A DNA stretch of 35,633 nt from Parvularia atlantis (taxonomy: Eukaryota > Opisthokonta > Rotosphaerida). A model generated the notes under the pieces. That model worked only from the letters and a program-made list of their open reading frames with translations, was not told where the DNA came from and made no database searches. The translations under genes and the position numbers were made by a program. Below are positions 14,101-35,633 of the stretch, piece after piece (the stretch's first letter is position 1; each line of letters starts with the position of its first letter). The stretch covers positions 1 to 35,633 of the forward strand of contig CALSCO010000759.1 of NCBI GenBank assembly GCA_943704415.1, in the 5' to 3' direction.

Positions 14101-16088
14101 CGCGTGCCGTACGCCTTGGACGAGAACAGCGTGTCCTTCATGCTCGACTTGATGCCTGGCACGGGGCCCGTCAGCGGCCGACGCGCACGCACGGCACGCG
14201 GCGCACCTCGCACGCGGCCCAGCTGCGAGACGTGGTCGCCGATCTTTAGTGCGTCGGCGCGGTTGAGCAGGTACGGCAGGTCAAAGTTGGTCGTGTTATA
14301 GCCCGTGATCACGTCCGGGTCCGACTGCGCGCGCGCGCAATGTCAGCCCGTGCGCCACAAGGCCGCGCGAGAACGCACGAGGATGATAAAGTCGCGCCAG
14401 GCCTTGAGCATGTCGGCCTCGGACTCGAAGCTGAGCACGTCGGCGCCGGCGATGCTCGCGCAGGCCTTGAGCGTGAAGATGTTGCGCACGCGCGGCTTGG
14501 TCTCGCCTGGCGCACGCATCGCAGGCGTGTCAGCTGCTGCTGCGGTGCGCCGGCACGGACGCACCCTGCAGCGTGATCATGTTGGCGATCTGGATCACGG
14601 GGTCCTTGTCGGCCTCGGGGAAGTGCCCCTTGCGGCCCGCGCACTCGATGTCTGCCCCGGGTAACGTTGAGCGTGCGCACACGCAGGCACAGCGGTTGGC
14701 GCCGCACCGAAACTGAGGATGCGCAGCGGCGCGATGACGGACCACTCGTCCTCGATCGAGTGCGACACAAAGTCGTTCCAGCTGCGCGTCCCTGCCCCAT
14801 TAGCACGCGCGGCCTCGTGCGCGCCCCCCAGGGCCTACGCACGCGATGTCAGCCTCGATCTGGCAGAAGCTCGTCTTGGTACTGCGCAGCTTGTACTTGC
14901 TCGGCGGGAGCTCGATCCAGCCGGCGCCGGGAACGGCGCGGTCGATCATGAAGCGAAGGACGTACTCGATGTTGCTCTCGTACGTCTAGTGCGCATGAGA
15001 CGTGCGCGCGTGCGGCAGGAGGCGTCGGCACACCTGCAACGCGATACTGCCGTACGGGTGGCACGAGAAGCCGCGGTCAAAGATGCCTGGTGCGCGGACG
15101 CCGCAGTGCGTGAGCAAAGGCGGTTCCGTGTGTGCGCACGCGCCGCGCCGCACGCACCCTTGACCTTGGAGATCTGCGAGGGCAGGGCCGTGTAGACGCG
15201 GATGAATGGAATCTTGCGGTTGCCGTGGAAGCCGTAGATGCTGCGCGCCGGCGCCAGTGCGTGAGGCGGCGAGCCGGCCCTTGTGTGGTGACGCAGGCGC
15301 ACCTCTCCTTCTGCGCGACCTCGAGCTGTATCCGCACGTCGCTCGCCCGGTTGAGTGCCAGCTGTTCCTGTGCACGGGGCGGGCGGCGTGAGCGGGCGGG
15401 CGCGGCCGGCGCGTGTCACACGCACGACGAGCGCGTGGTGGATGCTGCCGAGGTGCGACGGGTCGAAGTTCATCGGCGCGGGCACGTAGAAGTACGGGCG
15501 GAAGCCGTGGACGTGGCACAGGACGCTGTTGCCCGCCTTGGTCACGCCGTAGAAGCGGATGATGGGCGCGTTCGTGGCCGGGTCGGCGCCGGCGCTCGAG
15601 TAGGCCCGGTGCATCTCGGGCGGGGCCTTGCCCATGTAGAAGTCGGTGTCCATCTGCTGAAAGACTGCGGCGCGGGCGTGTCAGCGCGGACGTGGTGCGC
15701 TGATGCGGCCGGTGGGCGCGCACCGATCGCGTGCTCGTGCTCGTCGAGGGCGGGCGCGGCGGGGCGCGTCCAGTGCCGCCGCATGTTCTCGTCATCGGGC
15801 GCGGGTGCGGGCGCGGCTGCTGCTGCCACCGCTGCGGCCACGGCGTCGCTCTCGGCGGCCTCCATCATCGCGTCCATCTCCGCCATGTCTGGTGCGCGGG
15901 GCGCGCGCGCGGATGGGCACGCGCTGCGCTCGCGACACGCGACGCCGGCGAGGCGCACCCATGTCCATCATCTCGTCCACGTCGTCGTAGTCGCCGTCGG
16001 CGCCCGGGCGCGGCTGGCGCGGCCGCTTGGACGCGTCGCTGCCGGGCGTGCTGTCGGCGCCGCGCTTGGCGCCGGTCGCGCTGGCCAT
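11142..16088 (-). CDS. POL3: DNA polymerase delta catalytic subunit
   Basis: B-family replicative polymerase with 3'-5' exonuclease, acting at the replication fork. About 29 short exons. N-terminus [12 protein letters not shown] and KRPRQPRP is a basic, nuclear-type start; the N-terminal domain shows [25 protein letters not shown]. Exonuclease: Exo I FDIECAG, Exo [15 protein letters not shown], Exo [12 protein letters not shown]. Polymerase: motif A SLYPSIM, motif [13 protein letters not shown], motif C YGDTDSVM, then [10 protein letters not shown]-terminus: CysA (CLGC ... CKHC) and CysB (CQRC ... CTARDC), the latter the Fe-S site that binds the B-subunit, ending ERFESSW. All catalytic acidic residues of the motifs are present. 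The ATG at 16088-16086 faces the Siva-like gene across 109 bp with an E2F-like site, suggesting S-phase control. One intron (13707-13759) uses a GC donor. Confidence 0.97.
13707..13759 (-). other. GC-AG intron in POL3
   Basis: On the minus strand the exon ends with AYLPQ plus AG, and the next gives RLLDKLM, reproducing the conserved AYLP-RLL element of delta polymerases. The donor is GCGCGC and the acceptor CACAG; a CTGACC branch-like motif precedes it. A GT donor a few bases on would add residues to a strongly conserved block. Confidence 0.7.
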
Positions 16089-24391: not shown

Positions 24392-26237
24392 ATGGGAATT
24401 GCGAACGCAGAAGGACAAGGTTCCCAGCGTGGCGCGGTGTCATCGACGCCGCGCACTCATCCGCGCCAGCCGACGATGCTCAAGGGCTCGCTCAAGCACC
24501 TGATGGAGAACCTCGAGGCGTTCGCGAGCCTGCCGGCGTCGCCCGTGTCGATCCGGCAGCTCATCTCGCACGGTAGCTGGCGCGGCCGCGGCGTTGCGCG
24601 CACAGCAGGCGCTGATCGATGGGCTCGCAGGGTCGCAGCCATCGCGCCGCGCGCTGCTCTTCTCGGCGCAGTTCCTGCACAACGAGCTCCCCATCCGCAT
24701 CGCGCACAGCATCCGCCAGCTCGAGGTGCTCCCGCACGGCCTGAGCGACACGGACGACATCCGCCAGCTGCGCAGCGACTACCTGCGCTCGTTCGAGGAT
24801 CTGCTCAGCTTCCCGCGCATGACCCTCCCGCCCGTGCCCGGCGTCCTCCCGCACGGCTTCGACTACGCCCTCGGCACGGTCGAGACCGCGCGCATGTTCC
24901 GCAAGACGGACCTGCGCGCGATCAAGGGCACGCTCGAGAGGCTGCTGGACGAGCCGGCGCTCGGGCGCGTCTTCGACAGCCAGCGCGACAGCTTCCTGGA
25001 CCTGCTGCAGCAGATCCGCGACCGGCACCAAGACGGTGCGTGAGTGCCTGCGTGCGCGTGTGCTCGGTAGCCCGCTTACCCGTACGCGCCCGCAGACACG
25101 ATTGCGATGGGGCGCGCGCTGCACGAGCTGCGTCTGCGCCTCGGGCCCAAGTCGCTCACCAGCCTGCCGCTGAACGACTTCCTGAACCCGTTCCACCGCA
25201 ACCGTATCGGCTTCCGCCTGCTGCTCGGGCACCACATCGGTGTGCGCCCCCCATGCGGAGTGCGCGACGGACGGCTGACTTTATGGCCGCGGCGGTTCAG
25301 CACTCAGCGCGGGCTCGCAGGAGGGCCACATCGGCATCGTCAGCCCGACGTGCGTGTGCCCGCAGCGCGTGACGACTCTGATCGCTCGGCCGCGCAGCTG
25401 CAACGTGCGCCAGATCGTCGAGGCCGCGGGCAACTCGGCCGCGTTCCTGTGCATGCAGCACTACCCGTCCGCCGTCCCACCCGAGGTGCTCTTCCACGAG
25501 TGCGTGGTGGTACCCGCGCCGGTTGAGAGCGACGCGCCGGCCTGGGCCGGGACCGGTGGCGGCGAGGCAGCGCCCCGACCTGCACAACCTGCATCGCTCA
25601 CGTTCCCGTTCATCCCGTCGATCCTGTACTACATCAGCTTCGAGTTGCTCAAGAACTCGCTGCGGGCGTCGGTCGAGCTGGCGCTGCGACGCGGGGCGCC
25701 GACGAGCCCGCCGCCCGTGAGCGTGGTCATTGCGTCGCAGGGCGAGGTGCGCTGCCGCGCGCGTTCACCGTCACCGTGCCGCGGGCCCGAACGATCGTGT
25801 GTGGCGCGCGCAGGACATGGCCATCAAGTTCTCCGACCAGGGCGGGGGCATCCCGCGGTCGGCGCTCGACCACGTCTGGTCATACACATACACGACCGCG
25901 CCGCCACTGTCGGTCATCGGTGCGCCGCGCGCCTCAGTGCCGCCGCTGCGTGTAACCGTGCGGCCGCGCCCGCAGACAGCAACCGCCCGGGCGGCGCGCG
26001 CATCACGCCAATGGCCGGCTTCGGCTACGGGCTGCCGGTCTCGCGGCTGTACGCACGCTACTTTGGCGGCGACCTGCGGCTGATGAGCATCTACGGCTAC
26101 GGCACCGGTGCCGTGCACGCACGCACCACCAGCGCCGCCTCCCTGTGCGTCTGACGCGCGCATCCGCGCCACGCACAGACGCGTACCTGTACCTCAACCG
26201 CATCGGCGACGTGGTGGAAGCGCTGCCGCCCAGATGA
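24392..26237 (+). CDS. Mitochondrial PDK/BCKDK-family protein kinase
   Basis: Phosphorylates and switches off a mitochondrial 2-oxoacid dehydrogenase (pyruvate or branched-chain). Eight exons (24392-24572, 24631-25035, 25096-25239, 25301-25355, 25398-25746, 25814-25919, 25976-26107, 26179-26237) give 476 residues from the first ATG. N-terminal regulatory helices: PASPVSIRQLISHG, SAQFLHNELPIRIAH. GHKL ATPase part: N-box ELLKNSLRA, G1 SDQGGGIPRS with VWSYTYTTAP, G2 GFGYGLPVSRLYARYFGG, and GYGTDAYLYLNRI at the end. The first intron is best placed at 24573-24630, which restores the conserved join and phase. An ATG at 24476 is an alternative start; neither gives a textbook targeting peptide. PDK and BCKDK cannot be told apart from sequence by eye. 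Confidence 0.92.
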
Positions 26238-26355: not shown

Positions 26356-27054
26356 ATGGCGGGCGCGCGCGACCCGAACGCGGTCACGTTCACGTGCCTC
26401 AACGGCATGTACGCGCCGCGCAAGCTGCGCGTGAGCGATTTCCCTGCGGTGATCGGCCGCCAGACGGTGCGCGCTCCGTGTTTTTTGTGGTTGGATCCGT
26501 GGGCTGAGCGCACGCCGCGCCCCAGGGCGAGACGGAGGACGTGCACAGCCTGCTGTTTGCCAGCAAGATCGTCTCGCGGCAGCACGCGCGCGTCTCGTGC
26601 CGTGACAACAAGGTGCCGCGCTGCTGCCCCGCGCCGCCGTGCCCGCCGCGTGAACCGACCGCCCCATGACCCAGTACTTCATCCAGGACACGCGCAGCGC
26701 CGGCGGCACCTTCGTCAACCACCGGCGTCTGTCCGCGCCCAAGGAGGAGTCGCCGTGGACCGAGCTCAGCGACGGCGACGTGATCGCGCTCGGCACCGAC
26801 TACGAGCTCGACGACGGTGGGCGGCGACGCGGCCGCCCCGCCTCGCTCACCGCCTCGCGCCCGCGCAGTCGTCGTCAAGGCCGTGCGCTTCTTCGTGCAG
26901 ATGCCGCAGAGCCACCGCGCCAGCCGCATCCTGACTGACGACGAGGTGTCGGGCACGGACACGACCGTGATCCTCAAGGTCGAGAAGGTGCGCGCGCCTC
27001 GCGAGGTCGCACCGCTGCTCATCGGCCGCTGCACGTCAAGACGCTCTACTTCAT

Positions 27055-27101
<47 letters not shown>

Positions 27102-30100
27102 GCAGCGGGCAGACGTCGCCGGCCGTGTCGCCGTCGCCTGGGCGCTCACCCTCGCTGCCGTCCGACGTCGAGGCCGGCATGAGCGGCCTGAACCTGGCGC
27201 AGCGCGAGCTGTCGGTGCGTGCCCGTGCGTGTGCGCGTGCGCATGGCTGCACTCGCTGACGCCGCCGCAGACAAACATCGTCGTGTTCACGCGCGAGGGT
27301 GACAGCAAGCTTGTGCCGTGCACGACCCGCACGACGGCCGCGCAGGTGCTCCAGTTTCTAAACCTGCCCGCGTCGTTCAAGCTGTACGTGATTCGCAACC
27401 GGCTGTACGGTGCGTGCGTGCGTGTGCACCACGCAGTGACCGAGCGGTCGAAGCTCACGTGCGGCGCAGAGCGCGAGCTGCGCGCGACCGAGTGCCCGGC
27501 CGCCCTCTTGATGCAGCTGCTGGAGCAGAGCGGCTTCTCGCTCGAGCTGGGCCTGCTCTCGGAGGCGACGCACAAGGACAACAGCTACCTGGTGCAGTTC
27601 ATCTGCAGCGACGAGGGCGAGCACACGCAGGTCGTCAAGGCACGCCGTGCTTGAGTGCTGCTCGCGCGTGCATCCTCGTCTGAGCGCGCTTTGCGCGCGC
27701 AGAACCAGTCACTTGAGATCTCGTCCGTCGTTGACCTGTCCTGGCGCAACCTGACGACGATTGAGCCGCTGCTGCAGCGCCTCTCGCAGCAGGCCGTCAG
27801 CCGCATCGACCTGTCCGGCAACGCGTCCCTGCGCAGCGCCATGCCGCCCTCGCTGCCCCCGACCATCTGCGGCAGCCTGTCGGAGCTGATCCTCACCGAC
27901 CTCGCCATGACCACCGTGCCCGAGGTCGTCTCGCAGCTGTTTGCGCTCAAGCTGCTAGACCTGTCGCGCAACGCCCTTGTGGCTATTCCGCCGGCGATCT
28001 TCACCAACCTGGCCGAGCTGCACAAGACCGTGCATGCGAGCGTGCCGGACGCGGTCGTCGGCCTGCGCACTCTGCGCATCGGCGGCAATCGCCTCGTCAA
28101 CATCCCGAGCTCGATCAGCAAGCTCACGCCTGCGCTCGAGACGCTCTGCATCGACAACAACGACCTCGCGATCCTGCCCGACGTCATCGGCGACCTCACG
28201 CGCCTGGTCTGGCTGGACGTGTCGCACAACAGCATCGTGAGCGTGCCCAATGCCGTCTTTGCCCTGCCCGAGCTCCAGACCTTCCTCTGCGCCGGCAACC
28301 AGCTCCAGGCGCTCCCGCCGGCATTCTACCAGAGCAGTGCGCCGCACGATCCACGTTGCGTCTCGTGCTGCCAGCTGACACGCGGCCGCGCAGGGTCCTT
28401 GGCCTTTGTGGACGCACGCCGCAACCGGCTCAAGGCGTTTGGCGACTGCTCACGTGCGCTCGGCCCGTTGTTTGTGCGCGTGGGCACGTACTCACTCGCC
28501 GACGCGCCAGGCATGCCTGGCCTGACGACGCTGCTGCTCAACGATAACAAGACGCTCGAGACGCTCGACTTGTCCAGCGCGAGCATCGCCTCGGCATCGG
28601 CAAGCGACTGTCGCGTGACCGACGTGTCGTTCGCGGGCACGCCCGCGACCGCGGCGCCGGCAACCCCGCGAGGCACACCCCTGCCGCCGCCACTCGTCTC
28701 GCCGTTGCCGCCCGTGACGCCGACAGGCGATGCCGCGCGGGGGTGCGTGCTGCCCCGCTCAACACTGCCGTGTGTTGACGTCCCGCGTGCACAGGGTCGC
28801 CGCGGCACTGCCACCACCGCTGGTGCCTCGTGGCGGCGGTGCCAACATGACGACGCTCGACCTGACCGGCTGCGGGCTCGCGGCGCTACCGGCCCAGCTG
28901 CCCGCCAAGCTGCAGCACCTGCTGCTCGCGCGCAACCAGCTCACGCGTACGATGGAGTAGTGGGCGCGCAGCGGATCGCGCAGCTAATCGCTCACACGCG
29001 CGCGCAGTGCTCCCTGCATCCATCGGCACCTGCACCAACCTAGAATCGCTCAGCGTCAGCCACAACAGGCTGCAAACGCTCCCTGCACTCTCCTGTGCGT
29101 ACACGGCGGCTACGGCGCACCGCTGGCGGCTCACTAAGGCGCGCACCAGCCCTCACCGCCCTCACTCTGCTCGACTGCAGCGACAACGAGCTGCGTGCCA
29201 TGCCGGCCGACGTGTGGGCGCTGCCGCTGTCGACGCTGCGCGCGGCGTCCAACCGCCTCGAGGTGCGCGCGTTCGCTGTGATGCAGCCACACCCCGCTGA
29301 CTTGCCCCACGCGCGGCAGACGTTCGCTGTGCCGGCGCCGTTCAACCCGCGCGCGTCGCCGCTCGTCGCGTCGCTGCAGGTGCCGCCAGCCTGCCGCGCG
29401 TTCGCATCCACTGACTCATTGCGCAGATCCTCAGCCTTGGGCGCAACCGCCTCGCGGCCGACCGCAACCTGTTTGGCCTGATCCTCCTGCTGACGGGCCT
29501 GCGCCTGCTTGACCTCAGCTATAACGACATCGCCGAGCTGCCGCCCAACCTCGGCCTGCTGTACCGGTGCGCGCTGCCACGCCGTGTGGCGGTGTCTGAC
29601 GCGTGCTGCAGGCTGAACGAGCTTTACCTCTCTGGCAACCGCCTGCGCGCGCTGCCGGACGACGTCGAGAAGCTGCGCAGCCTCGTCGTGCTCACGCTGG
29701 CGGGTGCGCACGCGGTGGGTACATGTGCCGCAGCGTTTATCGTGCGGCACGCAGGCAACGAGATGACGACCCTGCCGGGCGGCATGTCAAAGCTCAAGCA
29801 GCTGCGCTTCCTCGACGCGTCATTCAATCAGCTCTCGTACGACCCGGGCCAGTGGCCGCAGTGCTGGAACTGGTGCACGTCCGCGCGCGGCGCGCTTGGT
29901 GTGCTTAGCGCACGCGCGTCGCAGGGTCTGGAACAAGGACCTGGCCCACCTGGACCTGTCGGGCAACGAGAACTTGGTCGTGGCCTCGGCGCAACGCGAG
30001 CTCGTCGACTTTGCGCAGCTGCCGCGCCTGCGCATCCTCGACGTGCGCGATGTCAAGGTGGGGGCGCACGGGCGGTGCCGCGATCTGGGTACTCACGGAC

Positions 30101-33100
30101 ACCGTGTTGTGCAGCTGCAAGTGCCCATCCCGGCCGACCTCAAGCGCGACGGGCGCTTCCGCCGCACGCACCAGGTCGTCGGCCAGCTGCCGCACGGCCT
30201 GTCGGAGGCGCTTGGCGGCGACACGGAGCTGCACCTGTGGAGCCACGCGATCGCCAAGATCCCCAAGTGCGCGCACAGTGTGCGTTCGCTGCGTCTGTTG
30301 ACAGGGAGCCAGGGACACGGACGGGCACATGTTTGGCCTGATCGAGGGCAGCGAGCCGGCGCTGGCCCGCTTCATCCACGAGAAATTCCCGACTATCTTC
30401 GCGATCGAGCACAAGGCCGCCAAGTCGGACGGCACGGTGGCGCCGACGCACCAGCAGATCGTCTCGCGCGCGTTCACGCGGTGCGCCGCAGCGCACGCAG
30501 CGCACACAGACTCACGCAGGCGCACGCACAGCACGTTCCTCCTGCTCAACGCCGAGGTCGCGCTCGTCGGCGCGCCGCTGTCGACCGCGGCGTGCTCGGT
30601 CGCGTTGTGCTACGTGCATGGCCGCACCGTCAGCGTGGCCAGCGTCGGCTCCACTCAGGCATGTGACGGCACGGCACGGCGCGCGTCTGTTAGGCCCGCG
30701 CTCAGACGATGGGAACAACACAGGCGCTGCTGATCAAGGGGCGTGGCAAGGCGCAGCTGCTGAGCCGGAGGTTCCTGTGCTCGGACGCGGACGAGGCCAC
30801 GCGCATCCGCGGTCTCGGCGGTGCGCATGCCTCGAAACGATGCTGGGGGCTATACTGACACAGGTTGCAGGATGCCTCGAGCGCGACGGCTCGCTCGCGC
30901 GCCCGAAAGGCATCGACCCGCACTTTTCGTTGGCGACGTCTGCACGGTCTGCGCCGGCCACAAGCTCACCCGACGGGGGCGCGGCGTCACCCGAGGAAGA
31001 CAGCGTGCTTAACAGCCAGGCACGCACACTGGTCAGCGCGAGTGCGGTCTGTCGCTGAGCCGCTCGACGCAGGACATGACCCGCGCGGTCGTGCACTCGC
31101 GCGTCATCGGCTCGACGCACATGCTGCCGCTCGTCAACGCCGTGCCGCACGTCAAGCACGCAGAGGTGCGTCGTCGGCTTGCGTGTGCGCGCGACGCCGA
31201 CGTGCGCCACAGTTTGCCGACGACGACGAGTACGTCGTGATCGCCAGTAGCGCGTTCTGGGCCGTCATGACCGACGACGACGTCGGCCGGAGCCTTGCTG
31301 GCATGATCGACCTCGACTGTAACCAGCGCTCGCTGCGGGTGCACACGGGCGTGCACACCGTCGCTGCTGCCTTGTGACGCGCGCATGTGGGTTGCAGCTG
31401 CGCGACCAGGCGTTTGCCTACGGTGCGCGCGGCCCGCTGGCCGTGCAGGTGATCGACCTGCGCTACGCCGTGTTTGGCAACGAGCCGTACCGCGACAAGC
31501 GCATCCCGTCGTCGGGCTCGGGCAGCTCGACGCCGGGCATCGCGCGGATGCAGTCGCCCGACGCGAAGGCGAGTGGCTTGCCGGCGCGGCTGTTGCAGCA
31601 CACGGTCTCACGCGCGCTACGATCGGCAGGAGGTCAAGCCGCCGACCGAGGTCGTCGTGCTCGTCTTCACCGACATCAAGTCGTCGACGGCGCTGTGGGA
31701 GCGCAGCCCGCAGGCGATGCGGGACGCGATCGCGCTGCACAACAGTCTCATGCGCGAGTACGCGCTGCAGGTCAACGGCTACGAGGCGCGTTCCCGCGTG
31801 GGCAGCTTGCTTGCGGCCCGCTGAACGGCGCCCGCTCAGGTCAAAACCGAGGGCGACGCGTTCATGATCGCGTTTTGGACCGTGCGGGACGCGGTCGACT
31901 GGTGCATCACAATCCAGCGCCGCCTGCTCGACGCGGCCTGGCCCGCGTCGCTGCTCAAGGAGGCGCCCGCGGCCGAGAAGCGCGGGGACAAGGGCGAGCT
32001 GCTGTTCCGGTGCGCTTTCAGCACTACACACGCGCTATGCCCGTCCTGAGCCGACGCCGTCCGGGCGCAGCGGCCTGACCGTGCGCATGGGCATCCACAT
32101 GGGCTTCCCCGTGTGCGAGATGGACCCGACGACGGGGCGGATGGACTACTTTGGCCCGGTCGTCAACCGCGCGGCGCGCATCTGCTCGGCGGCAGACGGC
32201 GGGGAGATCTACGTCTCTGCAGACTCGTGGGTGCGTGTGCGCGCGGCCGCGCCCGACCGCTCCGCTCAGCGCGCCTGCGTAGAACGAGGTCGTGTTGAGC
32301 GACAAGGAGCGGACAGAGCTGCGCAAGCGCGGCGTCGAGATCGCTGCGCTCGACCTGGGCGAGTTTAACCTGCGCGGGCTCGAGACGCCTGAGCACCTAT
32401 TCCTAGTGCGCGCGTGCGGCTGTTTGGGCCGAGACCGCTGACGCGTCGGCGGCAGCTCTTCCCGAAGCAGCTCGAGGGGCGCAAGACGATCACGCGGAGC
32501 CAGCAGGCGCAGCAGCAGCAGATTGCGCGGCACATCAAGTGCGTGGGGGGCCGTGCAAACGCGCGAGCGTGGCTGACACGCCACCGGCAGGAACATGGAC
32601 GTGCCGTCCTCCGAGACCGTGCTCGACAGCTGGCGCTGCGTGCGCTGGATCCGCGAGCCCGTGAGCGTGCAGGTGCCGGTGCAGCCCGCGGCTGTGGACG
32701 ACTCGCGGTGCGCTGCTCTTGTTGCTGCCCCAAAGGGCTGACACGCCCGCGGGCCGAGCAGCAAGGGGCGCCTGCTGCTGACGCCGTTCTTCGTCTGCTT
32801 CGAGCCCAAGTTCCGCAACTTCCTCCTGCGCAACAAGAACCGAGACTCGCTCGCACTCGCGCTCAAGGACGTGAAGGACGTGCGGATCGTGCGTGTCGCG
32901 GACGCCAGCGCCACCGCAGTGCAGTGACGTACGGCACGCATCGCACGGCGCGCGCACAGGTCAGCGTGCCGTCGATGGGCCAGGGCCTCGAGATCACGTC
33001 GACATCGAACGAGTCGCTCGTATTCATGAAGCTCGAGGCGCGTTCCGCTCGCCCGCACACCGCGCACGCACAGGCTGACGCGCCGCTTGCGCAGCCTGCG

Positions 33101-33205
33101 GACGTACACGAGCTGCAGCAGCGCATCGTCACGCAGCGCGCGTACGCGCTCTCAATCGCCGCCAAGTCCGCGGCTTCGCGCCCGACGCCTCCGCTTGCCA
33201 CTTGA
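26356..33205 (+). CDS. CYR1: Fungal-type adenylate cyclase with FHA and GRAM-like additions
   Basis: Makes cAMP from ATP downstream of Ras or nutrient signals. Domains in order: FHA (26356-26987: [41 protein letters not shown]); Q15 tract and Ser/Pro linker (27041-27214); Ras-association domain (27271 to about 27630); leucine-rich repeats (about 27703-30270; e.g. [18 protein letters not shown]); PP2C-like domain (about 30317-31370; MFGLIEG lacks the metal-binding DGHGG); class III cyclase (about 31640-32405: FTDIKSST with a metal Asp, GYEVKTEGD with the adenine-contacting Lys, RMDYFG with its Asp partner, VNRAARI); then [10 protein letters not shown] and a GRAM-like domain ([17 protein letters not shown]...[10 protein letters not shown]). 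RA-LRR-PP2C-cyclase is the fungal order. Splice phases match through the FHA-to-RA and cyclase-to-GRAM joins. The Galpha-binding N-terminal domain was not seen. The 5' end and several LRR/PP2C borders are provisional. Confidence 0.9.
27056..27100 (+). repeat. Pure (CAG)15, polyglutamine
   Basis: Fifteen uninterrupted CAG codons encode Q15 directly after YFM, between the FHA and RA domains of the cyclase. Pure repeats of this kind tend to vary in length between strains. Confidence 0.97.
31786..31839 (+). other. GC-AG intron in the cyclase catalytic domain
   Basis: The exon ends VNGYE and the next begins VKTEGDAFM; together they give the near-invariant class III cyclase motif [11 protein letters not shown]. 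The intron begins GCGCGTTC and ends CTCAG with CTGAAC upstream. The only in-phase GT (31798) would insert four residues (ARSR) into this motif. Confidence 0.85.
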
Positions 33206-33250: not shown

Positions 33251-34444
33251 ATGCCGCCGCTGCCGCCCGCGCGCGACCTCGCCGCCGCGCGCCGCGCGCT
33301 CGAGGACCGGCTCGAGCCGGCCAAGCAGCTGGTGATGGCCGTGTACATCAACTGCCTGCTGGCGTACCACGCCGCGTACGCCGCCGCGTTCGTGTGCGCG
33401 TACATGACAGCGCTCTGGTGCGTTCCTCGGGGCCGTGTGTGCGCGTGCGCCCCCCTTTGCTGAGCAGCGGGCGGGCGGGCGGGCAGGTACGTGACGAGCA
33501 CGACCAAGACGCTCTTCGAGCTCGTGACCATGGGCATGCTCGCGATGGTGCTCGTGCAGGTCGGCGTGCAGACGATGGGCTGGCGCCTCGCACTGCCGGC
33601 CGACTTCTTTGTCGTGCCCGCGGCCAGCCAGCACGAGTGCGCCGCGCCGGTTGCACCTCGTCCTGCTCGGGCGTCTCACACGGCGTCACCACACGCAGGA
33701 CCGCCACGCACAAGCGCGCACTGCAGTTCCACGAGCTGTGCGGCTTGGCCGTGCGGCTGCGCTTCGCCGTCGATGACTTCGTGGCCGTCGTCATGCGCGT
33801 GCAGCGCACCCGGCCGTGGCTGGTGCGCGCGGAAGCCTGCGCACGGATCGCGCTGGCCACTGACGCGCGCACGCGGCGCAGGTCACTGGCGTGCTCGGCG
33901 TGCTGCTGCTCGGCTCGCTGTGGCTGTCGACGCGCGTGCCCGACTCGGAGCTGTTCTTCTGGCTCGGTGCGCGCGTCCTGCGCGGGCTGCTCGCTCGGTG
34001 CTGATTTGGCGCGCGCGCACAAGGCATCGCTCTCGCTGTCACGCCCGCGGTGCAGCACTACTGTGCCGTCGAGCGCATCGACGCGCAGCTGCTGGCGCTG
34101 CTCGGCAGCCCGTACCGCGACCGCCTCCACCAGCTGCACCAGCACGTCGTCGCGCCGCTTCGCACCGCCGGGCAGCAGTTTGTGCGCTCTCTGCTAGACG
34201 AGGCGCCCGCTGCACGGTCGCGGTCTCCTTCTCCGCCGCCACCGCCAGCCAGTGCGTGCGCTTGTGGCGCCCGTGACCGATTAGCTGATGCTCCGCAGCC
34301 GCAGCCGCAGCCGCAAGCGCAGCCTCAGCCGCACCGACGCTCGCCGCTGCCGTCGCGTCCGAGCTGAGTGAGTCGTTCTACCTGGTCAGCCGCGACCGCG
34401 ACCTGGGCGACGAGCCGGCGAGCGCGGCGCCGGCGCTCTCGTGA
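33251..34444 (+). CDS. Multi-spanning membrane protein of unknown function
   Basis: Six exons (33251-33417, 33487-33636, 33699-33822, 33882-33966, 34024-34251, 34299-34444) give 299 residues. Two pairs of hydrophobic segments are seen: around VMAVYINCLLAYHAAYAAAF and LVTMGMLAMVLVQVGV, then VTGVLGVLLLGSLWL and FFWLGIALAVTPAV, separated by a helical loop (LQFHELCGLAVRL). The tail is Ser/Pro/Ala-rich and ends FYLVSRDRDLGDEP. The two-hairpin layout recalls reticulon-like or peroxisomal/ER-shaping proteins, but I recognise no family motif, so function is open. An upstream in-frame ATG at 33223 is only 18 bp past the cyclase stop and less likely. One acceptor is AAG (34021-34023) rather than CAG. 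Confidence 0.7.
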
Positions 34445-34527: not shown

Positions 34528-35633
34528 ATGGTGGACGGCCACGTGGCGCGCGTCGCGTCGCGTGTGCTCTCGCTCGCCGCGCCGGCGGCGCCGCAACAGC
34601 ACGACGGCGCGGTGCTGGAACAGCTGGCGCGCGTGCTCGTGCGCGAGGCTGCGCGCGGGCGCTGGGACGTGGCGCTGCTGCTGCGCTCGCTCCTGCCCGA
34701 GCTCGTTGCGCGCGCCGTGCGCCTGCTCACCGACCTAGGTGACGGGCGCGCCAGCGACGCCGGCGACGCGCTGTCGCTCCTGACGTGGCCCGAGCTGTGC
34801 GTCGTCGCGCTCGCCAACCTGCTACCGCTGTACCCGCAGGTCCTGCGGTGCGTGGCGCCGCGTGCTGCGGCGGCGGCGTCTTGACGCGTGCGCCAAAGAC
34901 CGGCGCAGCCGCTGCTGGCCGGTGCGCCGCCCTTCTTCGAGCGGCTCGCGACGAGTGCCGACCCGGCTGCACGACGGGCCTGGCCCGTGCTCGCGCTCGC
35001 CGCCAGCCGCCTGCTCACGGCCGCGCCCGAGCTCGCGCGCCACGCCTGGGATTGGTCCGCGTTCTATCGACTGTTGCTCGCGAGCGACCCGGGCGACGTC
35101 GCAACGCGCGTGCACGCCGCCCGCGCCATTGCCGTGCTGCTGCGCATGCCGTCACCCGAGCCGCTGTTTGCATGTCACCTGCCGGAGGAAGTGCGCGCCG
35201 ACGCCGTGGTCATGTGGTGCGTGCTGCACGCTCTCGGCTGCGCGCAGAGCTCACGGCGCACGCCAGTCTTGACGAGGAGCGCCTGCTGCATGCGCTGCGG
35301 CAGGAGCTGCTGGCGGCGTCGGCAGACAGCCCGGCGGCCGCGTCGGCAGTGGACGACACCGTGATCACGGCTGCCGACCTCTCGCAGCACTCGGCGAGCG
35401 TGAGCGGCGTGCTGCTGCCCCGCGCGGCGACCGCGGCCGGCGCACCAGGACCGGCGGCGCACTTTGATGCGCCTCTGGTGATGACCGAGACGACGCGACG
35501 CAACCTGCACGCGCTCGCGCTGCTGCTCTCGCTCGGCGCGCCCGTCCTGCTCGAGGGCGCGACCGGTGCCGGCAAGACCGCGCTCGTCGAGGAGGCCGCG
35601 CGCCAGCTGGGCCGCACAGGCATGCCCCCCCCC
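34528..35633 (+). CDS. MDN1: Midasin (Rea1), N-terminal part, cut by window end
   Basis: Giant dynein-like AAA ATPase that strips assembly factors from pre-60S ribosomes in the nucleolus and nucleoplasm. Three exons are seen (34528-34847, 34899-35216, 35267 to the window edge). The N-terminal region is helical (ALLLRSLLPELVARAVRLL, WPELCVVALANLLPLYPQVL, ARAIAVLLRM), as in midasin before AAA1. The last exon has TTRRNLHALALLLSLGAPVLLEG followed by the Walker A GATGAGKT (about 35548-35571), which matches the midasin AAA1 entry (P-LLEGP-G-GKT). The remaining 4,000 or so residues lie outside. The second exon uses an AAAG acceptor (34895-34898) with CTTGACG upstream; this restores phase. Confidence 0.85.

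Follow-up and report, generated by a model that had tools for sequence, protein, structure and literature searches.

Organization of the locus

Hand splicing of positions 26356–33205 (+) of the window, by which we mean the whole 35,633-nucleotide stretch analysed, gave 35 exons that form one frame of 1664 amino acids with no internal stop (Table 1). The predicted product carries, in order, an FHA domain, a linker with a run of 15 glutamines (Q15; aa 159–173), an RA domain, leucine-rich repeats (LRRs), a degenerate PP2C domain, a class III cyclase domain and a weak GRAM-like tail. Its 34 introns measure 36–71 bp and comprise 28 of GT-AG and 6 of GC-AG type; GC-type intron starts are apparent at 27640, 30659, 31020, 31569, 31786 and 33038, and the one at 33038, 36 bp long and in frame, may stay in the transcript. 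The splice sites of this gene were picked by hand, and the model rests on the genomic sequence of one assembly, a draft of 16.25 Mb in 616 contigs; the GC content of the window is 66–79% per kb.

When the product was searched against Pfam, FHA (aa 32–106, E = 1e-12; 3e-14 for the N-terminal 153 aa alone) and RA_3 (E = 2.1e-13) were both found, as expected from the original prediction. A scan of the organism's own genome placed an FHA match at 26669–26794, in the region of exon 3, and the sole RA_3 match found there at E <= 0.1 was the window cyclase. The features that mark family membership are present (a class III catalytic domain, an RA domain before the LRRs, and LRRs with a PP2C-like domain behind them), and the RA-LRR-PP2C-cyclase order, with loss of the PP2C metal motif, is that of Cyr1, the family of fungal Ras-responsive cyclases that is sister to PHLPP. 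PHLPP shares the RA-LRR-PP2C chassis with Cyr1 but differs in having a PH domain and no cyclase (PMC12002173).

Table 1 Features of the FHA–cyclase gene model, in window coordinates
Feature	Position	Strand	Description
Exon 1	26356..26466	+	Start ATG, N-terminal part of FHA, IGR motif, R35; GC3 0.95, +44.7 bits
Exon 2	26526..26612	+	FHA core SKIVSRQHAR (S54, R55, H57), aligns to SLMAP SRNH; GC3 0.93, +34.2 bits
Exon 3	26675..26816	+	FHA strands GGTFVN, LGTDY; GC3 0.98, +63.2 bits
Exon 4	26869..26987	+	End of FHA region and linker; GC3 0.97, +60.9 bits; 5' splice site AAG/GTGCGC at 26988
Intron 4, as originally predicted	26988..27040	+	53 bp; acceptor possibly at 27058–27112 instead, within the CAG run or directly behind it
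Exon 5	27041..27214	+	Q15 run (27056–27100), Ser/Pro-rich linker, in frame with RA; +65.0 bits
Exons 6–7, RA domain	27271..27639	+	Pfam RA_3, PF23010, aa 215–302, E = 2.1e-13
Exons 8–18, leucine-rich repeats	27703..30057	+	LRR_8, 3.4e-33
Exons 20–26 (part), PP2C-like domain	30313..31455	+	PF00481, 2.8e-17, aa 1024–1235, profile positions 74–251 only
Class III adenylate cyclase catalytic domain	31639..32285	+	PF00211 (Guanylate_cyc), 1.1e-24, aa 1286–1445
C-terminal GRAM-like domain	32592..33031	+	PF02893, 0.037 in whole protein, 8.2e-4 in tail alone; both below Pfam cut-off
Whole gene model	26356..33205	+	35 exons, 34 introns of 36–71 bp

On the upstream side, the last frame of the neighbouring gene, which encodes a mitochondrial dehydrogenase-kinase domain (BCDHK_Adom3), stops at 26237. 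Downstream, an open reading frame runs from near 33251, and its first piece has no Pfam match. Elsewhere in the window, 14946–15677 (-) resembles the N terminus of a REV3-like DNA polymerase zeta, and at 34743–35633 (+) a protein begins that is truncated where the contig stops; it matches AAA_7 weakly, below the cut-off, and is perhaps midasin.

Probable continuity between the FHA exons and the cyclase

To score coding potential, a codon model was trained on no other exons than those of the gene from RA to its end. Each of exons 1–5 then scored +34 to +65 bits in frame (GC3 0.93–0.98), while both remaining frames came out negative; the part of exon 5 at 27100–27214 alone reached +29.9 bits, again with the other frames negative. 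Splice sites were scored against 29 training introns. The exon 4 donor at 26988 reached 10.9 bits, a value exceeded by only one of the training donors (2.4–11.3 bits, n = 29), and an exon with such an end is improbable as the last of its gene. At the proposed junction 26988–27040 the strong donor and the kept frame held up, but the acceptor at 27040 (..GTCAAG/A) scored -0.5 bits, under all 29 training acceptors (2.0–10.6 bits). Acceptors at 27058–27112 score higher (2.1–6.1 bits) and would lengthen intron 4 to 71–125 bp, compared with 36–71 bp for the other 33 introns, and the sequence CTCAT, which resembles a branch point, is found 23 nt upstream of 27040, a spacing that favours 27040. The choice matters little to the reading frame: with 19 of the 21 positive-scoring downstream acceptors, as with 27040, a single frame stays open through to the last cyclase codon, in 15 of those 19 because the CAG repeat has a period of three.

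Extending the exon 4 frame across 27041–27180 gave -35 bits, against +45 bits for the cyclase frame. Read on unspliced, the FHA frame meets its first stop at 27180, within the polyQ exon of the cyclase, and 26988–27040 is mildly coding-like in the frame of exon 4 (+8.3 bits over 17 codons). We also considered a dip in GC as a sign of a gene boundary. The 60-bp minimum is 0.60 between FHA and RA, 0.52 ahead of the FHA ATG and 0.53 inside the cyclase; because GC falls equally low in coding parts of the cyclase, the dip was rejected as boundary evidence, and base composition, in which no clear boundary shows, was judged not decisive. Rfam gave 0 matches on the window. A bacterial promoter and terminator scan marked one terminator-like site at 26469–26481, within intron 1, which is uninformative for a eukaryote.

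Much of the original prediction thus survived scrutiny. Its FHA exons, running in matching phase through the Q15 exon into RA, were confirmed by Pfam, codon scores and the open spliced frame, and the introns of 53 and 56 bp with no stop in the spliced frame were as claimed. Within the span given for FHA and polyQ, 26356..27214, coding on the FHA side starts at the ATG at 26356 and runs to 26987, and the polyQ exon closes at 27214. The join is supported by the phase of the splice sites, by codon usage and by the strength of the donor, and FHA and the Cyr1-type cyclase likely form a single gene.

FHA type and phosphothreonine pocket

Among 17 PDB chains matching the FHA domain at E <= 1, human SLMAP (6ar0) was the best (E = 6e-14) and Vps64 the next (1e-5). 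SLMAP scored far above the mycobacterial FHA chains and above 3gqs, a chain described by its depositors as 'adenylate cyclase-like' (E = 0.0062). Judged from these matches, the window FHA is of the SLMAP/Vps64 (STRIPAK) type: SLMAP and Vps64 (Far9-Far10) are its nearest solved relatives by sequence, and their phosphate-binding Arg and Ser are kept here. Far9/SLMAP is a tail-anchored STRIPAK subunit (PMC12435686), whereas the window FHA leads into a cyclase, and we do not count the protein as a STRIPAK member.

Four SLMAP residues, R32, S52, R53 and S75, hold the phosphate of phospho-MST2, and H55 is likewise a conserved phosphothreonine-binding residue; R32A weakens binding of a phospho-MST2 peptide about 120-fold, and mutation of R32, S52 and H55 disrupts MST2 binding in cells (PMC5663475). 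Counted along the PDB alignment, R32, S52, R53 and H55 correspond to R35, S54, R55 and H57 of the window protein, so that four of the five pocket residues are kept; the S75 contact is A75 here, and the Asn that follows it is Gly. Because most of the phosphate-contacting residues known from SLMAP are present, recruitment of the cyclase to phosphothreonine through its FHA domain is plausible.

The same genome holds 17 Pfam FHA matches, exons counted singly. A small family of SLMAP-type FHA genes is seen at L028 (contig C118), L029 (C487), L030 (C455) and L031 (C7); by eye, the C118 and C455 genes appear to be short with FHA as their sole domain, and the C118 gene seems to close with a Q-rich tail followed by a stop. 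Such FHA cassettes are possible donors. The STRIP/Far11 family gave a match in the genome (E = 2.3e-7) and striatin gave none, in a search whose controls were prokaryotes only.

Cyclase core, tail and upstream inputs

Class III cyclases use a metal-binding Asp pair and a purine-contacting Lys/Asp. D1297, K1336, D1340, D1416, N1423 and R1427 are invariant across the four proteins of alignment A1, and the catalytic positions of the cyclase are intact. The metal-site motif of the PP2C domain is degenerate in the same alignment (FGLIEGSEPA here against FGLFDGHHTG in Sorochytrium). Loss of the DGH-type motif is consistent with the view of Cyr1 as a pseudophosphatase, and with a PP2C domain in this state the protein would be unlikely to erase a phospho-signal itself.

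The GRAM-like tail sits where many relatives carry a CAP-binding tail, the C-terminal CAP-binding and dimerization domain being an acquisition of fungi (PMC12002173). Searched against the PDB, the C-terminal tail matched two chains only (E = 1 and 1.2), neither usable. A model built from 75 tails scored the window protein at E = 9.6; with Sorochytrium left out of the model its tail was also missed (1.7), whereas Paraglomus, left out in turn, was found (1.2e-15). A firm claim that the CAP tail is absent was rejected because of the failed leave-one-out test for Sorochytrium, and the difference from Cyr1 at this end is therefore stated as a GRAM-like tail here, with a CAP-binding tail not detected by a model of low sensitivity. 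A CAP N-terminal motif is matched in the genome (E = 4.4e-7).

In Cyr1-type cyclases a single enzyme receives input from both Ras and CAP (PMC12002173, PMC8308684), and one passage of the literature consulted points, in our reading, to Ras-dependent recruitment rather than allostery. Two G-alpha loci lie over the cut-off in the genome. The G-alpha-binding domain PF08509, present in many but not all of the relatives among the best 120 of 2249 matches, had 0 matches in the genome and the product, a further difference from Cyr1 to be read with the control genomes, which gave none either.

Relatives and the search for a second fusion

We assembled 85 relatives, of which 75 were Cyr1-type proteins among the best 120 of 2249 matches and 10 were rows of another search, all picked by eye from the Pfam column; some are truncated gene calls. 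FHA (PF00498) was absent from the best 120 of 2249 rows and from the 10 further rows. A local FHA model built from six sequences detected the domain in none of these 85 relatives (E <= 10); it does find the window protein, itself one of the six, which was the only check of its sensitivity. The view that Cyr1-type cyclases lack FHA thus agreed with the 85 relatives examined, from which the N-terminal FHA sets the window protein apart.

Of 4655 candidates from a search of residues 1–345 against 5.8 billion proteins, two were hits at E <= 10, and no cyclase domain is listed for either: an FHA protein of the chytrid Boothiomyces (P0107, E = 4.6e-5) and an FHA/vWA protein (P0112, E = 0.4). This search needs shared exact words of five residues, so distant fusions could be missed. 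A pattern scan based on alignment A1 gave 102 matches in viral contigs and 322 in genome contigs, with no relatives by tblastn. None of the open-licence papers searched, as represented by their titles and the starts of their abstracts, describes an FHA-bearing Cyr1, and in the text retrieved from PMC8308684 the mention of FHA concerns Rad53, not Cyr1. The kinds of domain are all known, and FHA in a Cyr1 is a new combination in the literature searched.

Bacterial FHA-linked class III cyclases exist. They resemble the window protein in pairing FHA with a cyclase but are not known to have the RA-LRR-PP2C core.

The closest Cyr1-type row by catalytic identity among the best 120 of 2249, P0154 (58%), has a gene call that begins at RA without FHA and keeps an unaligned, intron-like stretch; that it starts at RA looks to be the product of automatic gene calling. 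On visual inspection, P0154 and the window protein share a short C-terminal linker motif that precedes the GRAM-like part. Cyclase trees paired the two with support of 100/100, and of 97/96 in a second tree that compared window residues 212–1283 with full-length rows, but both branches are long and the program warned that the join may be false. Without P0154 the cyclase tree gave the window protein no supported place. The description of the cyclase as fungal is likely: the Cyr1 architecture and one Fungal_trans match in the genome (2.7e-13) speak for it, but the cyclase trees leave the lineage unsettled, and unicellular holozoans also keep Cyr1 (PMC12002173).

Possible role of the FHA domain and alternative explanations

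We consider it rather probable, from the sequence, that the locus is a single gene for a Cyr1-type cyclase in which an N-terminal, SLMAP-type, phosphothreonine-binding FHA domain on a Q/S/P-rich linker determines position or partners. The locus might instead be two adjacent genes, with a short FHA protein followed by a cyclase starting at the in-frame ATG at 27053 (MQQQ...). The weak acceptor at 27040, the mildly coding-like stretch after the donor, and P0154, the closest Cyr1-type relative by catalytic domain among the best 120 of 2249, which is called without FHA, speak for this. A separate FHA gene is not absurd here, given that short FHA genes seem to be present in the same genome, other SLMAP-type genes among them including one apparently Q-rich at its end. 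However, the FHA frame stays open up to 27180, within the polyQ exon of the cyclase, so the two genes would overlap in coding sequence, and a terminator and a promoter would presumably have to sit within coding exons. The FHA exons also end in a near-consensus donor, their frame is anti-coding past 27041, and the P0154 start looks like an automatic call that kept an intron-like stretch; we regard two genes as quite improbable. Still further down the scale, and highly improbable, is an artefact of a chimeric contig or of unrelated exons joined by hand: the genome is a single draft assembly in 616 contigs and the splice sites were hand-picked, but FHA and cyclase exons are alike in GC3, intron size and splice consensus, and a codon model trained on the cyclase strongly recognizes the FHA exons.

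The fusion could also be real and the FHA domain a passenger, structural or bound to a non-phosphorylated partner, with no phospho-regulation. Relative to SLMAP the window FHA has Ala for S75 and Gly for the following Asn, one of 17 Pfam FHA matches in the genome could have been captured by chance, and the PP2C domain of the same protein has already lost its metal-site motif. Retention of the pocket Arg, Ser, Arg and His argues against this, and we find a passenger role doubtful.

If the FHA domain is indeed a phosphothreonine reader within a single protein, it would dock the cyclase on a partner's phosphothreonine. The partner might be an autophosphorylated Ste20/GCK-family kinase, such as SLMAP binds; only family resemblance points to a GCK/MST-type partner. 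FHA would then act as a second, phosphothreonine-dependent anchor that brings the enzyme to a kinase or its substrate, and the flexible linker would leave docking mechanically uncoupled from catalysis. In this way, kinase state may set where, or with whom, Ras-GTP turns on cAMP synthesis. A built-in phosphothreonine reader would add a direct kinase input to the cyclase, and an FHA of SLMAP type raises the possibility of a physical link from Hippo/STRIPAK-like kinase signalling to Ras/cAMP. More speculatively, and in our view unlikely, FHA might let the cyclase compete with or replace a STRIPAK adaptor at autophosphorylated GCK/Hippo-type kinases, which would make a kinase-gated cAMP switch, while the GRAM-like tail swaps CAP/actin for membrane-lipid tethering; the cyclase would then be rewired at both ends.

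Other cyclase loci and contig ends

Two more class III cyclase loci, L033 (C252) and L035 (C141), have long hydrophobic stretches by eye and resemble animal-type membrane adenylyl cyclases, although the genome is probably fungal. A fragment at G000:C570:90102-90305 (-) is 42% identical to the window cyclase domain (E = 9.3e-7) and is perhaps a further class III cyclase. The window contig closes in a run of C, as does C118, perhaps a trace of library preparation or assembly.
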